From positions 1 through 25,313 of IMG/VR virus record IMGVR_UViG_3300036945_000477: a stretch of DNA of 25,313 nucleotides; one strand, 5' to 3'. Made by a program: the position numbers and the translations under genes. The notes beneath the pieces are model-generated. The model had not been told where the DNA came from, made no database searches, and worked only from the letters and a program-made list of their open reading frames with translations. Source of the DNA: a virus. Below, piece after piece: positions 1 through 22,137 of this stretch. The stretch's first letter is position 1. Each line of letters begins with the position of its first letter.

Positions 1-83
1 AAGAAACACTTCGTGTATTGGATGCGCTACAAACTGGCGAGCTTTGTGCTTGTAACCGTACAGTAGGCGGAGAGACACTATAA
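1..83 (+). CDS. ahpC: Alkyl hydroperoxide reductase AhpC, C-terminal fragment (cut by window edge)
   Basis: The frame starting at base 3 encodes about 26 residues ending at TAA 81-83. They contain L-R-V-L-D-A-L-Q-T, then E-L-C-A-C-N and a terminal G-G-E-T-L. This matches the C-terminal end of AhpC peroxiredoxins of the mycobacterial type, which carry the V-L-D-A-L-Q-T stretch and a C-x-C pair near the end. AhpC reduces peroxides with a reactive cysteine that AhpD regenerates. The catalytic N-terminal part lies outside the window. The stop overlaps the start of the next gene (TAATG), so ahpC and ahpD are translationally coupled. The AhpD directly downstream strengthens a call that would be weak from 26 residues alone. 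Confidence 0.8.
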   Translation, partial: ETLRVLDALQTGELCACNRTVGGETL

Positions 84-589
84 TGGCATTCATCGACGCT
101 ATCAAAGAAGCGTTGCCAGACTACGCCAAGGACACTAAGTTAAATCTTGATGCTGTCCTAGTGCGTAGTACATTAGATGCTGATGTTGCTATGGGTTGTG
201 CTGTAGCGGCATTGGCTGCAACTGGTAACGGAAAAGTACTAAGCATTATGCTAGCGGATGGTCCAGTACACGCAGAGTCAGCAATGACAGCCGCAAGCAT
301 TATGGCACAGAACAACGTTTGGTATCCATTCGTTGAAATGGCTGATGATCCTAGCCTAAAAGGTTTGCCAGCACAGTTACGCATGAACGCTATTGCGTCA
401 CATGGCGGAACTACCAAGTCGAACTTTGAAGCATTCAGCTTGGCAGCTAGTATTGTTGGCAAGTGTCACTTCTGTGTTAAGGCACATTACGAAACACTCA
501 AGACAGAAGGCTATACTGTAGAAAATCTTCGTGACATTGGACGTATTGCTAGTGTAATGAATTCAGTTGCCAAGGTGTTGAATTCGTGA
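83..589 (+). CDS. ahpD: Alkylhydroperoxidase AhpD (AhpC-reducing partner)
   Basis: 168 residues, close to the length of bacterial AhpD. The catalytic set is visible with family spacing: E116, C128, C131 and H135 in the C-H-F-C-V-K-A-H block, matching the Glu/Cys-x-x-Cys/His set known from Mycobacterium AhpD. The N-terminus (E-A-L-P-D-Y-A-K-D, then K-L-N-L) is also typical. AhpD is a cytoplasmic all-helical disulfide reductase that passes electrons to AhpC during peroxide removal. The start ATG at 83 overlaps the ahpC stop and is preceded by GGAGAG. In a phage genome this is an auxiliary gene, probably protecting the infected cell from oxidative damage; that role is inferred. Confidence 0.92.
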   Translation: MAFIDAIKEALPDYAKDTKLNLDAVLVRSTLDADVAMGCAVAALAATGNGKVLSIMLADGPVHAESAMTAASIMAQNNVWYPFVEMADDPSLKGLPAQLRMNAIASHGGTTKSNFEAFSLAASIVGKCHFCVKAHYETLKTEGYTVENLRDIGRIASVMNSVAKVLNS

Positions 590-613
590 TATGTCTTTAA
601 TGATTATCAGTAT

Positions 614-641
614 GTGAAACAGGGTAGTTTTCCAGTATACT
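614..641 (+). promoter_or_regulatory. Possible promoter of pqqA
   Basis: TATACT at 636-641 lies 16 bases after GTGAAA (614-619), a weak -35 match. An inverted repeat AAACAG (617-622) / CTGTTT (640-645) straddles the site. TATAAGTA at 645-652 is also one base from the T4 late box TATAAATA, so early versus late use cannot be decided. Confidence 0.45.
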
Positions 642-671: not shown

Positions 672-693
672 ACTTAAACAAAGGAGAACTACT

Positions 694-765
694 ATGTGGA
701 CTAAACCATCAGCAACAGAAATGCGCTACGGTTTTGAAGTTACAATGTACGTAATGAATCGTTAA
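694..765 (+). CDS. pqqA: PqqA-like pyrroloquinoline quinone precursor peptide
   Basis: A 23-residue ORF with a strong ribosome-binding site (AAAGGAG from 680, 7 bases before ATG). The peptide starts M-W-T-K-P-S and ends G-F-E-V-T-M-Y-V-M-N-R. This matches bacterial PqqA, including the Glu and Tyr that become PQQ, here E15 and Y19 in the required E-x-x-x-Y spacing and at the same positions as in Klebsiella PqqA. In the known pathway PqqD chaperones the peptide, the radical SAM enzyme PqqE crosslinks Glu and Tyr, and PqqB/PqqC and a protease complete PQQ. No pqqB-E gene lies in this window, so host enzymes would have to process it. It sits alone between its own leader and a strong terminator. 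Confidence 0.9.
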   Translation: MWTKPSATEMRYGFEVTMYVMNR

Positions 766-779
766 TAGTAAGTCAAGAT

Positions 780-806
780 AGCCGTTGTGTAAAAGCAACG
801 GCTTTT
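780..806 (+). terminator. Rho-independent terminator after pqqA
   Basis: A perfect 8-bp stem AGCCGTTG (780-787) / CAACGGCT (796-803) with an 8-base loop is followed by TTTT (803-806). It isolates pqqA as a single-gene transcript. An outer inverted repeat AAGTCAAG (770-777) / CTTGACTT (813-820) encloses it and overlaps the -35 box of the next promoter. Confidence 0.88.
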
Positions 807-813
807 CTACGAC

Positions 814-15581: not shown

Positions 15582-15610
15582 TTGACAAATAGGTAAAACC
15601 ATGCTATAAT
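15582..15610 (+). promoter_or_regulatory. Consensus sigma-70 promoter of the GIY-YIG-like gene
   Basis: TTGACA (15582-15587), 17-base spacer, TATAAT (15605-15610), TGC before the -10 box. An inverted repeat TGGTT (15579-15583) / AACCA (15597-15601) overlaps the -35 box. The 15 bases at 15565-15579 also occur at 10071-10085, just upstream of the rIIA promoter. Confidence 0.9.
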
Positions 15611-17268: not shown

Positions 17269-17535
17269 TTAAGGTCCGGCAATAACATTAACTTTGCCGC
17301 TTGCAATAGGGTGACCGCAACTTGCGACGTCACCTATTCTTGCGACTGGCAGTCCACCAGCTAACACTGTAGCACTACCCGATGCAATAACACTGCCTCC
17401 GTGAATACCTGTTCCGTGAGGAGTGATGGCATCTCCCAACCGTGCAATTGGCTGTCCACCTACTGTGACAGTTAATAATCCAGAAGCAATTACGCCTCCT
17501 GCCACATCACCTAGTCTAGCTACTGGTGCTACCAT
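17269..17535 (-). CDS. PAAR-like tail spike tip protein
   Basis: 88 residues, rich in Gly, with repeated units ending in A-R-L-G-D or A-R-I-G-D (P-V-A-R-L-G-D, P-I-A-R-L-G-D-A-I, P-V-A-R-I-G-D-V-A-S-C-G-H-P-I). This is the PAAR-repeat pattern. PAAR proteins form a sharp cone that binds a metal ion and caps the membrane-piercing spike, as T4 gp5.4 caps gp5. Size is near gp5.4 (97 residues). The nearby gene 17537 is Ala/Gly-rich and may also be structural. It is a late-class gene by function and is probably read from a late-like promoter near 18253. Confidence 0.9.
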   Translation of the reverse strand: MVAPVARLGDVAGGVIASGLLTVTVGGQPIARLGDAITPHGTGIHGGSVIASGSATVLAGGLPVARIGDVASCGHPIASGKVNVIAGP

Positions 17536-19032: not shown

Positions 19033-19385
19033 TTTGCTTGAGTGCCTTTTTCACCCCATTTTAATAAAAAGTAGGAATAATCCCTAGCTTTTAGTTTTGC
19101 TTTTACTGCGAACAGGTAGCTATAGTCGAATGGTGTTTGCTGTTGATGCCAACTTGGCGTTTCAACAGAATGTTCCATTACCCACTGACCTACATCACTT
19201 TGTTGCCATTCCCATAGCGGTTGTGCCGCATACAGTTCAGGATCTTCAACATCACCCAGTTTGAATGTGTGTACTATTACATTGTGTATTTCGTCCACTC
19301 TATTGTCTGTGAGCATGTATTGATTTATCACTTTGGTCGGAGTTGGACCTAAGAATCCTTTTTCAGGTAATTTCGTTATTGCCAT
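19029..19385 (-). CDS. Hypothetical protein, possible divergent member of the C-terminal F-x-L-R-W family
   Basis: 118 residues from ATG 19385, which overlaps the upstream stop (TAATG) and has GGGGGA before it; a TTG start at 19397 is rejected. Trp- and Gln-rich middle (P-L-W-E-W-Q-Q-S-D-V-G-Q-W-V-M). It ends Y-S-Y-F-L-L-K-W-G-E-K-G, similar to the L-R-W ending of the upstream neighbours, after a lysine-rich stretch. It is larger than most of the row. The function is unknown. It is the last member of the coupled run before folA. Confidence 0.7.
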   Translation of the reverse strand: MAITKLPEKGFLGPTPTKVINQYMLTDNRVDEIHNVIVHTFKLGDVEDPELYAAQPLWEWQQSDVGQWVMEHSVETPSWHQQQTPFDYSYLFAVKAKLKARDYSYFLLKWGEKGTQAK

Positions 19386-19582
19386 TATTTCCCCCAAGTC
19401 ATCAAGAATAAGAAATGAGTCTTTTCATTGTCAAAGTAAATGGTTTGACCGCCCCAATTTCCTTTGATAAACCAGTGCCCGTCACCGACTTTTTCATTCA
19501 GCCAATCAACAATGTGCTCTGGCAAACGAATGTTTTCTATTTCTACTCCGTGCCACTCTTTCATCAAAACTTCTAAGTTCAT
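19385..19582 (-). CDS. Small member of the tandem F-x-L-R-W-like family
   Basis: 65 residues. It contains W-L-N-E-K-V-G-D-G-H-W-F-I-K-G-N-W-G, then the family end I-Y-F-D-N-E-K-T-H-F-L-F-L-M-T-W-G-K. The codons for T-W-G-K supply GGGGGA as ribosome site for the next gene, which overlaps its stop (TAATG). Its own start overlaps the upstream stop by ATGA, with AAGG from the upstream L-R-Y codons. The function is unknown. Confidence 0.74.
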   Translation of the reverse strand: MNLEVLMKEWHGVEIENIRLPEHIVDWLNEKVGDGHWFIKGNWGGQTIYFDNEKTHFLFLMTWGK

Positions 19583-19800
19583 ACTGCATACCTTAGTGCA
19601 AATAACGTGGCATATTTGTCGTCATAAAATTTAAACTTGCCACTCTTACCTTCAATATTGTGCATAGATATCGGATCATACGTTGACTGATTGTAAGCAA
19701 AGTCAAAGTCCTTACCCTGCACTAAACCTTGACTACGTAGATCTCTAACAATCTCCATAACTCTAGTTGCATCAATATTAGGTATCTTAATTTCTTTCAA
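19579..19800 (-). CDS. Small member of the tandem F-x-L-R-W-like family (TTG start)
   Basis: 73 residues with a TTG start that overlaps the upstream stop (TTGA). No other initiator lies before residue 15. The end is F-K-F-Y-D-D-K-Y-A-T-L-F-A-L-R-Y-A-V, a clear form of the shared motif. The N-terminal half looks helical with T-R-V-M-E-I-V-R-D-L-R-S-Q-G-L. The function is unknown. Confidence 0.72.
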   Translation of the reverse strand: MKEIKIPNIDATRVMEIVRDLRSQGLVQGKDFDFAYNQSTYDPISMHNIEGKSGKFKFYDDKYATLFALRYAV

Positions 19801-20195
19801 CTGTATTTTAACGCAATCATGAATGCGTCCCTGTCATTATTTGTTGCTACAAACACTTGATCTTCTTCCGCCCGCGTATCGTTGAGGTGAAATTTTTTGT
19901 CCCATTGATCTCTATAGCCGCGAGCAAAGTAAAACATCGTATTGTTGCCTAACTCTCGATTTGGATATAGATACTGTTTAAAGTCTTCGCAAGGGCACCA
20001 GCCAAACGGTTCGTCAAGATCAAATATATCCGTAGAGACAGGAATAATATGTTTGAAGTGCATAAACATATTCTCAACTGTGCTGGCACGGAGAACGACA
20101 TTCTCTTCTTTCCATGCTTTCAAAAGCCTCTCTTCTTTGTCAAGACCTGTGCGCCAAGTAAGCCACTTGTCTACAATGTATTCTTTAATCTTCAT
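19797..20195 (-). CDS. Hypothetical protein with family-like C-terminus
   Basis: 132 residues, longer than most of the row. The N-terminal K-I-K-E-Y-I-V-D-K-W-L-T-W-R-T-G is followed by a helix rich in Lys and Glu. The middle has P-F-G-W-C-P-C-E-D-F with a C-P-C pair. It ends V-F-V-A-T-N-N-D-R-D-A-F-M-I-A-L-K-Y-S, which aligns with the shared ending. It starts inside the last codons of the upstream gene (11-base overlap) without a strong ribosome site. The function is unknown. Confidence 0.7.
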   Translation of the reverse strand: MKIKEYIVDKWLTWRTGLDKEERLLKAWKEENVVLRASTVENMFMHFKHIIPVSTDIFDLDEPFGWCPCEDFKQYLYPNRELGNNTMFYFARGYRDQWDKKFHLNDTRAEEDQVFVATNNDRDAFMIALKYS

Positions 20196-20460
20196 GCTTC
20201 AGTAATTCAAATAATGTTGCATACTGCACTTCAGGTTCCATGTGAAAGCCTGTGCCCCACACTACCCAAACTCTGCGCTTGTATAATTTTTGCCAAGCAA
20301 CACGTTTACCTGTGATTGTTTTTTTAGGGAAAATGACAAAGGTCTCTGTCCATGGGTAGCAGTCTGCACCGTTTTCAATAATAGTATATTCCACTTTGCG
20401 TTTTTTATAACCAATCATATCTAAGTTCCATCCTATGCTTCTTCCCCAGACTACTTTCAC
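20185..20460 (-). CDS. Small hypothetical protein of the tandem row (GTG start)
   Basis: 91 residues if GTG at 20460 is used, which overlaps the upstream stop (GTGA) and has GAGG, formed by the upstream L-R-W codons, 8 bases before. A longer GTG start at 20469 is possible. It is basic and Trp-rich (R-R-V-W-V-V-W-G-T-G-F) and ends E-V-Q-Y-A-T-L-F-E-L-L-K-H-E-D, a weak version of the shared ending. The function is unknown. Confidence 0.7.
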   Translation of the reverse strand: MKVVWGRSIGWNLDMIGYKKRKVEYTIIENGADCYPWTETFVIFPKKTITGKRVAWQKLYKRRVWVVWGTGFHMEPEVQYATLFELLKHED

Positions 20461-20684
20461 TGGGCCCACCTCAAAGCAAAGATTAATGCGTCTTCTGGGT
20501 TCTCAAATCTGTAGGCAAAACCTTCTGTTTTTTGCCAACCATGTAAATGAAATCTTCCACCAGGATACGTATTGACCCATTCTTGTATTTCGTTAACATT
20601 GTGATCAGGACTATCTAACATAGTTTTCCAAGTGATTACAATCTCAGTCCAGTTGGGTGGTGGCCAAGCAACAAATTGTATCAC
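20457..20684 (-). CDS. Small member of the tandem F-x-L-R-W family (GTG start)
   Basis: 75 residues from GTG 20684, overlapping the upstream TGA (GTGA) with GAGG upstream. It is Trp-rich (A-W-P-P-P-N-W-T, I-T-W-K-T-M-L) and contains I-Q-E-W-V-N-T-Y-P-G-G-R-F-H-L-H-G-W. The ending F-A-Y-R-F-E-N-P-E-D-A-L-I-F-A-L-R-W-A-Q is the textbook form of the family. Codons TTG AGG TGG form a strong ribosome-binding site for the next gene. The function is unknown. Confidence 0.75.
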   Translation of the reverse strand: MIQFVAWPPPNWTEIVITWKTMLDSPDHNVNEIQEWVNTYPGGRFHLHGWQKTEGFAYRFENPEDALIFALRWAQ

Positions 20685-20911
20685 GACCACCTCAACAGAA
20701 ACATTGTTATTTGTTTCTTAGTTCTAAACTTAAACGTATCAAAGCTCGTACGTGTGCCACAGTTGTTTCTAACACACCATTCCCAAACTACTTTCATGTC
20801 CTCTTCGGTTAGAAAATTTACATAGTTAGGATCATTGTATTCGTACTCGTCTGGAGCCGTTGCAACCAAATGCAGTTTCTTTGTGTTGTGGGCTTGCCAG
20901 TTGATCTTCAT
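20681..20911 (-). CDS. Small member of the tandem F-x-L-R-W family
   Basis: 76 residues from ATG 20911, which overlaps the upstream stop (ATGA); an ATG at 20917 is an alternative. It contains E-E-D-M-K-V-V-W-E-W-C-V-R-N-N-C-G and ends F-K-F-R-T-K-K-Q-I-T-M-F-L-L-R-W-S. The TTG AGG TGG codons near its end serve the next GTG start. Its own start lacks a clear ribosome site, so it depends on coupling. The function is unknown. Confidence 0.74.
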   Translation of the reverse strand: MKINWQAHNTKKLHLVATAPDEYEYNDPNYVNFLTEEDMKVVWEWCVRNNCGTRTSFDTFKFRTKKQITMFLLRWS

Positions 20912-21075
20912 AACCATTTGAGCGCAAATAATAGCGCATCCTTTTCATCTTCAAATTCAATGTAACTTAAATGTTGCAAGCGCCATCGTCCTTCAACACT
21001 GGGGCCGCATCTTTCAACAATCCAATCAAACATCTCATTAACTCTAGGATGTAGACATACATCAAATCGTGTCAT
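20908..21075 (-). CDS. Small member of the tandem F-x-L-R-W family (55 residues)
   Basis: A short ORF between two family members: ATG 21075 overlaps the upstream stop (ATGA) with GAGG five bases before, and TGA at 20910-20908 overlaps the next start. It contains V-N-E-M-F-D-W-I-V-E-R-C-G-P and ends Y-I-E-F-E-D-E-K-D-A-L-L-F-A-L-K-W-L, matching the neighbours. Here the motif has Lys (AAA) in place of Arg (AGG), and the downstream start correspondingly lacks a ribosome site. It is easily missed because of its length. The function is unknown. Confidence 0.78.
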   Translation of the reverse strand: MTRFDVCLHPRVNEMFDWIVERCGPSVEGRWRLQHLSYIEFEDEKDALLFALKWL

Positions 21076-21341
21076 AGCCACCTCATCATAAACCAGGCGG
21101 CCTCTTTTTTGTCTTCAAATAAGAAACGCTTGCCTCGACTCATTTTATAACCTTTGCAATTCTTATCTAACCATTCTTTAATTTCAGCAACTCGTTCTTG
21201 AGACTGTCTTGGAGAAAATTCAACTTCAGTCCAGCCCATATCCTTGTATAATGAAGCAAGTACATCAAAGTCAATATCTTCAGCTAGATCTTTGGCCGCA
21301 CGGTTTACTGCTTCTTCAATAGCATCATGTTCAAATTTCAC
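21072..21341 (-). CDS. Member of the tandem F-x-L-R-W family (GTG start)
   Basis: 89 residues from GTG 21341, with GAGG seven bases upstream inside the upstream gene's L-R-W codons. The N-terminal half is acidic and helical (A-I-E-E-A-V-N-R-A-A-K-D-L-A-E-D), then V-A-E-I-K-E-W-L-D-K-N-C-K-G. It ends R-F-L-F-E-D-K-K-E-A-A-W-F-M-M-R-W-L. The stop overlaps the next ATG (ATGA). No alternative ATG lies near the start. The function is unknown. Confidence 0.74.
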   Translation of the reverse strand: MKFEHDAIEEAVNRAAKDLAEDIDFDVLASLYKDMGWTEVEFSPRQSQERVAEIKEWLDKNCKGYKMSRGKRFLFEDKKEAAWFMMRWL

Positions 21342-21561
21342 TTGACCACCTCAATACAAACCAAGTAAAATGCTTTGGGTCTTTAAAAGAAAATGTAGTA
21401 TTACCAAACATACTGTGTATTGTCCAATTTACCTGCATGCCTTCCCAATCCTTAACCACACGTTCGCTGATCCAGTTGCCTGGACCAAAATGTGAACTAC
21501 ACCAATTTTGCATCTCTTGATGCAAGTGGTATTGCTCTTTACCAAACGTTATAAAGCTCAT
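21331..21561 (-). CDS. Member of the tandem F-x-L-R-W family
   Basis: 76 residues, ATG overlapping the upstream stop (ATGA). It contains E-M-Q-N-W-C-S-S-H-F-G-P-G-N-W-I-S-E-R-V, a pattern shared loosely with its neighbours (helix, W-C/W-L, then G-P-G-x-W), and ends F-S-F-K-D-P-K-H-F-T-W-F-V-L-R-W-S-S-E-I. It appears as a small alpha/beta unit. The function is unknown. Confidence 0.74.
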   Translation of the reverse strand: MSFITFGKEQYHLHQEMQNWCSSHFGPGNWISERVVKDWEGMQVNWTIHSMFGNTTFSFKDPKHFTWFVLRWSSEI

Positions 21562-21950
21562 GAAAACTTCATCCCTAACATTGTGTATAATTTCTCATTC
21601 ATGTCAAACACACTACGGAACCGAGAGCCACGAACTGGATGTTCGCTCCATTGGTCTTTCTTCTTAGTGCGTACCCACGTAGCAATAGGCGAACTAACTG
21701 CAACTGTGTGCCACTGCTCACCGTCAACAAGTGCGCTGTCAACAACTTCAAATAAAGGTTTTTGAGAAAACATGTCTTCCCACTGCTGTGCATATTGATA
21801 ATACATTGACTTGCCAGTCTGGCGACCAGCAGTGTACACCATCAACTCGCTTGGAGCGATACCGCCAGATAGGTTAGACATTAAATCTTTCTGGAACGGC
21901 AGCATCGCTTCCATATCGTAGCAAAAAGAGTGATCGGTATCGTTCGTCAT
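21558..21950 (-). CDS. Hypothetical protein with P-loop-like motif
   Basis: 130 residues. A Walker-A-like A-G-R-Q-T-G-K-S lies near residues 41-48, in a context (E-L-M-V-Y-T-A-G-R-Q-T-G-K-S) that resembles the start of terminase-type ATPases. No Walker B is visible, and the protein is far too short for a terminase. A second block, F-E-V-V-D-S-A-L-V-D-G-E-Q-W-H-T-V, occurs in my memory of small T4-like phage proteins, so it may be a conserved phage family rather than a fragment. It overlaps the previous gene by 77 bases. ATG at 21914 is an alternative start. Confidence 0.7.
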   Translation of the reverse strand: MTNDTDHSFCYDMEAMLPFQKDLMSNLSGGIAPSELMVYTAGRQTGKSMYYQYAQQWEDMFSQKPLFEVVDSALVDGEQWHTVAVSSPIATWVRTKKKDQWSEHPVRGSRFRSVFDMNEKLYTMLGMKFS

Positions 21951-22137
21951 AAAAATCCAAATGAACAGTGGTAAGTTTCCTAGTCACGCCCGGATCCCAC
22001 GCAGAGTGTTCTCGAGTAGTAAACCCAAGTTTGCGTTTCATTTTTTCACGGATCATCCAAACACTTGGTGGATTATCTCTTTTTATTTTACAGAGTATAT
22101 CATCCCATTCGGACAAAGTGTAGACAAGGGGCTTCAT
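21874..22137 (-). CDS. First member of the tandem family, possibly leaderless mRNA
   Basis: 87 residues. It contains L-S-E-W-D-D-I-L-C-K-I and the ending H-L-D-F-Y-D-E-R-Y-R-S-L-F-L-L-R-Y-G, then 11 extra residues that overlap the next gene. It has no ribosome-binding site. The -10 box of the promoter (22148-22143) ends only five bases before the ATG, so transcription may begin at the start codon. It is the promoter-proximal gene of the row running to folA. The function is unknown. Confidence 0.72.
   Translation of the reverse strand: MKPLVYTLSEWDDILCKIKRDNPPSVWMIREKMKRKLGFTTREHSAWDPGVTRKLTTVHLDFYDERYRSLFLLRYGSDAAVPERFNV

Follow-up and report, generated by a model that had tools for sequence, protein, structure and literature searches.

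The window, the 25,313-nucleotide stretch of viral DNA analysed here (IMG/VR record IMGVR_UViG_3300036945_000477), carries on its plus strand an open reading frame at positions 694–765 encoding the 23-residue PQQ precursor peptide PqqA (MWTKPSATEMRYGFEVTMYVMNR). The peptide lies well above both curated cut-offs, with 37.4 bits for Pfam PF08042 (cut-off 21.1) and 36.1 bits for NCBIfam TIGR02107 (cut-off 20), and searching the window in six frames recovered the PqqA ORF with E = 6e-10; a looser PqqA expression run on 30 codon-shuffled windows gave no matches. E15 and Y19 are both present in the E-x-x-x-Y arrangement of the PqqA family, the Glu and Tyr of which are the residues that become PQQ. 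A Shine-Dalgarno sequence, AAGGAGA, lies 5′ of the gene at 681–687 (plus strand). The first-pass annotation, made from the letters of the window, had placed the gene, its two diagnostic residues and its ribosome site correctly, the coordinates being exact, and its statement that no other pqq gene is present also held: PqqB, PqqC, PqqD and PqqE were not found in the 25,313 bases of this virus contig.

Directly upstream of pqqA lies an ahpD-like gene of the carboxymuconolactone decarboxylase family (83–589, plus strand; PF02627), and the flanking genes of the window pqqA share its direction; among the matches listed from other viruses, both ORFs beside pqqA lie on the opposite strand to it in 51 of 144 loci. 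The stop codon is followed by a terminator-like hairpin with a TTTTC tail (about 780–807, plus strand), which folds with a z-score of −5.4 (766–820). The tight terminator previously claimed is borne out in its strong hairpin, but the T run is short and a consensus terminator scan of the hairpin called no terminator. In L337, a related phage, another hairpin takes this position after pqqA, and L337 shares with the window a block of 766 bases covering ahpD and pqqA. Terminator-like hairpins follow pqqA in 76 of 163 listed viral loci; the corresponding counts are 37 of 400 for other ORFs and 9 of 163 for shuffles. In another related phage (L347, 11391–11556), ahpD is followed, in the place of pqqA, by a different short ORF of approximately 54 residues (MQTMLHRQSISKQ...EGWDG) and then by a terminator-like hairpin.

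Between ahpD and pqqA, at 596–613 (plus strand), is a putative host-type operator, hereafter denoted the pqq box (TTTAATGATTATCAGTAT), whose core at 598–613 fits the consensus TMATGA-N3-TCATTAG imperfectly. It scores 19.4 bits with a position weight matrix (PWM) built from viral sequences and 13.0 bits with a PWM from host chromosomal pqqA upstreams alone; it is the only site of at least 9 bits on the plus strand of the window, with one weaker site on the minus strand (12.1 bits, at 15589). A sigma-70 scan places a putative −10 hexamer, TATACT, at 636–641 (plus strand), 31 bases from the box centre, and a weak −35 element, GTGAAA, at 614–619 (plus strand).

When 154 non-redundant viral pqqA upstreams (from the matches listed) and 112 host pqqA upstreams were searched for motifs independently of each other, the same interrupted palindrome emerged from both, as ttTAATGaTTtTCcttAt in the phage set and cTCATGAaatTCaTtAG in the host set. 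The host-only PWM, at a threshold of at least 8 bits, detects the box in 58% of viral upstreams among the matches listed (0.9% of shuffles), and the viral PWM detects it in 55% of host upstreams (1.3% of shuffles). Strong host-PWM sites in the listed viral loci number 119 in the 200 bases 5′ of pqqA and 29 elsewhere; these 200-base regions make up 2.3% of the viral-locus sequence and the remainder approximately 98%. The operator is nearly restricted to viral pqqA genes of the matching host type: among the matches listed, it precedes 119 of 130 Methylophilaceae-type copies by either PWM and 88 of 130 by the host PWM, the latter being the independent figure since the viral PWM was trained on the same viral sequences, compared with 2 of 24 copies of other host types. 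It is also present in the isolates P19250A, MEP301, Melnitz and Venkman. On the host side, a strict box pattern matched each of 12 genomes 2 to 8 times, counted by strand (58 in total, versus 3 for a reversed control); most boxes at the host loci read lie 110–143 bases before pqqA (162 and 360 in one tandem pair) or, in the two Methylophilus genomes, before pqqB.

The distance from the box centre to the −10 hexamer shows distinct preferences. In viral copies it is 29–31 bases in 34 of the 119 box-bearing listed copies (5.6 in shuffles) and 52–54 bases in a further 16 of the 119 (4.8 in shuffles), whereas in hosts it is 52–54 bases in 34 of 92 (1.6 in shuffles). The offset between the viral and host spacings is close to two helical turns, which would be expected for a transcription activator, and the box presumably activates rather than represses. 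The presence of a host-type box on most viral pqqA genes suggests, from comparison of the sequences, that these phages plug pqqA into host control of PQQ. We propose a new Methylophilaceae pqq regulon marked by this palindromic box, to which the window site would belong with its 13.0 bits by the host PWM, and regard it as fairly likely that unrelated phages have converged on the pqqA unit and that a host activator drives viral PqqA.

Viral pqqA has the hallmarks of a functional peptide gene under purifying selection. Two pattern scans of IMG/VR each gave at least 120 pqqA matches; all 120 matches listed from the first are complete peptides of 22–25 residues, with a ribosome site visible in nearly all. 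The pattern of the first scan demanded Glu and Tyr, and conservation of these residues was therefore counted from the second, in which both positions were open: Glu15 and Tyr19 are kept in 120 of the 120 viral copies among the matches listed. Over the codons left free by the first pattern, in 147 distinct coding sequences among the matches listed (the window included), dN/dS is approximately 0.14 with dS approximately 1.2; the second pattern gave a minority of the sequences in this set and also constrained a few of the counted codons. A third pattern, for the alphaproteobacterial type of PqqA, gave 44 plausible peptides out of 44, so viral pqqA extends beyond a single host family. The gene stands alone, with no pqqB–E found by tblastn in approximately 206 viral pqqA loci among the matches listed, and no PqqE above cut-off in 43 other whole pqqA-bearing virus records among them.

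The search of related phages that the first-pass annotation had called for had a divided outcome. By tblastn of a phage collection, pqqA is present in all nine matched Methylophilales/Methylophilaceae phage isolate records (Venkman, P19250A, MEP301, MEP401, MEP402 and four Melnitz isolates), which represent five lineages; the count refers to matches within the collection, and further phages placed in Methylophilales by taxonomy, such as MEP431–434, EXVC038S and HIM624-A, stand outside it. In the large-phage clade of the window itself, the gene is present in 1 of 42 relatives (L337). Five of the nine isolate records have no annotated gene at the place of pqqA. In Melnitz (MZ577097; L246, 2961–3066), the annotated MelnitzEXVC044M_152 is called in the antisense direction relative to pqqA and probably hides it; we found no mention of pqqA in the publications describing Melnitz and MEP401/402. 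Nucleotide matches of MEP301 or MEP401 to other methylophages are almost confined to approximately 60–140 bases at pqqA, the exceptions being a holin/peptidase common to MEP301 and Venkman, and MEP401 and MEP402, which are close relatives. Pelagibacter and Roseobacter phages that share other genes with MEP301 or MEP401 are absent from the tblastn pqqA matches of the collection, as is HTVC008M, a published relative of Melnitz, of which the first 50 kb were also read directly. A further collection record, 'Acinetobacter phage MD-2021a' (L247, CAKLQF020000010.1), was rejected as a phage pqqA, its DNA being bacterial-looking with ppk and pqqABCDE.

The Methylophilaceae are well equipped to use such a peptide. 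Of 187 genomes of the family, 185 contain pqqA, 168 encode PqqE above cut-off, and 171 have at least two pqqA copies (median 3, up to 12). That members of this family carry many pqqA copies alongside single copies of the other pqq genes has been reported (PMC4109929), and a PQQ producer is described in which three of the five pqqA genes stand alone (PMC9851590). The gene carried by the phages is the very one that the hosts have multiplied, and since the hosts possess several stand-alone copies, an orphan viral pqqA is less odd than it first appeared. The rest of the PQQ pathway is present in this family, which we infer to be that of the window phage's own host from the peptide type and the box.

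We consider that the PQQ precursor encoded in the window is functional and that its gene forms a self-contained, host-regulated unit feeding host PQQ synthesis in Methylophilaceae, and put the probability of this reading at about three in four. The unit would consist of the host-type operator, the −10 hexamer, the ribosome site, pqqA and the hairpin. In an infected Methylophilaceae methylotroph, host RNA polymerase, together with the host regulator on the box, would transcribe viral pqqA; host PqqE/PqqD would cross-link Glu15 to Tyr19 of the viral peptide, and host proteases, PqqB and PqqC would finish PQQ, which would serve the PQQ methanol dehydrogenases of the host. Where the phage stops host expression, PqqA would run out first; a viral pqqA driven by a host-type promoter would by itself sustain PQQ synthesis and, through it, the supply of cofactor to PQQ methanol dehydrogenase. 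That the phage carries pqqA without the other pqq genes would follow from the use of one PqqA for each PQQ made, which calls for fresh PqqA once the host is shut off, while PqqB–E are reusable. This supply model draws on the anatomy of the locus, the selection acting on it and knowledge of the pathway, and its expected outcome is raised PQQ to the benefit of the phage. The earlier proposal of an orphan PqqA serving as substrate for host PqqB–E in a methylotroph is well supported by the nine isolates, the retained Glu/Tyr pair and the frequency of pqqA and PqqE in genomes of the inferred host family.

Several observations weigh against the supply model. The rarity of pqqA in the window's own clade implies that the gene is not essential there. 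A plain sigma-70 scan of viral pqqA upstreams was not clearly above shuffles, and no box was detected before the pqqA of MEP401. The signs that viral pqqA forms a moron, an autonomous phage transcription unit with promoter and terminator of its own and often set against its neighbours, are mixed, with the enriched hairpins, the antisense placement and the box-to-−10 spacing on one side and the sigma-70 result and the co-directed neighbours in the window on the other. The window AhpD gave no match in the 187 Methylophilaceae genomes, in a search run without a positive control, which leaves room for a host outside the family. A PQQ dehydrogenase accompanies pqqA in only 1 of 43 virus records among the matches listed. 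That record is a 72-kb contig (L453, a contig of L046) with pqqA and a XoxF-like methanol dehydrogenase, as in the Baikal phage described below; the 624-residue dehydrogenase (1084–2958) adjoins a repeat-rich curlin-like ORF, with pqqA separate, and no pqq box was found 5′ of xoxF in L453.

Alternatively, the operator itself could be the functional element, soaking up a host pqq repressor and so derepressing the host pqq genes, with the peptide as a bonus. The box is kept across unrelated phages and is the same as that before host pqqA and pqqB, and regulation through it may be of either sign. Nonetheless, strong purifying selection on the pqqA coding sequence, the activator-like preference for box-to-−10 spacings of 30 or 53 bases, and the occurrence of pqqA without a box in MEP401 make titration unlikely. 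Passive hitch-hiking of recent, accidental host pqqA copies without phage function, or misassignment of host DNA, is quite improbable: although the operator is of host type and one such record does exist in the collection (the rejected Acinetobacter contig), pqqA is found in phage isolates of five lineages, the divergence among the matches listed combines high dS with low dN/dS, the nearest of the host copies read shares just 85.5% identity over 69 bases, and the viral box spacing is unlike that of the host yet has a preferred value of its own. Least probable is the decoy or dead-end substrate suggested as an alternative by the first-pass annotation, which would occupy PqqE/PqqD and lower host PQQ; the peptide is expected to bind the same enzymes, and nothing further speaks for it, whereas a decoy would be free to lose both Glu15 and Tyr19, which the listed copies retain without exception, and the viral peptides are close to host PqqA.

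The preferred reading, supply of a functional precursor, has counterparts in other phages. In cyanophages, psbA is a case in which the phage supplies the pathway part with the fastest turnover; viral pqqA would likewise supply such a part, but one that is a consumed 23-residue substrate and not a protein subunit. Auxiliary genes that use a host regulator and its box are also found in cyanophages, where PhoBR of the host controls pstS and others (PMC10976474); they serve another pathway and answer to PhoBR, whereas the regulator of the pqq box is a putative one. Predicted boxes in phages need binding tests (PMC10976474). Chromosomal stand-alone pqqA genes of Methylophilaceae (PMC4109929, PMC9851590) resemble the phage copies in being lone, in carrying the same box and in encoding very similar peptides, but are host genes in which the box centre usually lies 53 bases from the −10, compared with most often 30–31 in phages.

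A phage PqqA was reported in 2020 from the Lake Baikal phage population VP_266 (PMC7678222). Like that of the window, it is encoded by a presumed Methylophilaceae phage and was proposed to serve methanol dehydrogenase; unlike it, it adjoins a phage methanol dehydrogenase, and it was reported without operator, selection or distribution data. The same report states that P19250A lacks the AMGs reported there (PMC7678222); P19250A does carry pqqA, unannotated. In addition, pqqA, pqqE and pqqD are among the viral genes described from a reservoir (PMC13188868). In the literature searched, we found no report of pqqA as a gene common to methylophage isolates, nor of a pqq box. Phage PqqA itself is not new; the methylophage-wide distribution, the unit and selection data and the shared box go beyond the Baikal report. 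A 23-codon gene mostly missed by annotation is nonetheless present in every methylotroph phage isolate in the collection, and, if the supply model is correct, viruses that infect abundant aquatic methylotrophs would commonly target the control of PQQ and hence of methanol oxidation. The operator common to phages and hosts would offer a route to the host regulator and a sequence criterion by which phages could be assigned to Methylophilaceae; it would also allow a simple test of whether host control over a cofactor pathway is tapped by phages.

The remainder of the window is that of a genuine phage genome, with rIIA, RNA ligase/tail-fibre attachment and NAMPT families and an ATPase, in keeping with pqqA as a putative phage auxiliary metabolic gene. 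On the plus strand, a possible NAD salvage set of the phage occupies 1687–5279, where an NMNAT-Nudix fusion and NAMPT flank an ORF that matches a PHROG 'phosphatase' family. On the minus strand, a short repeat protein at 17269–17535 resembles PAAR spike-tip proteins by eye, and approximately nine tandem small ORFs (65–132 residues) at 19385–22137 have similar F-x-L-R-W/Y ends, reminiscent of a tandem paralogue family.
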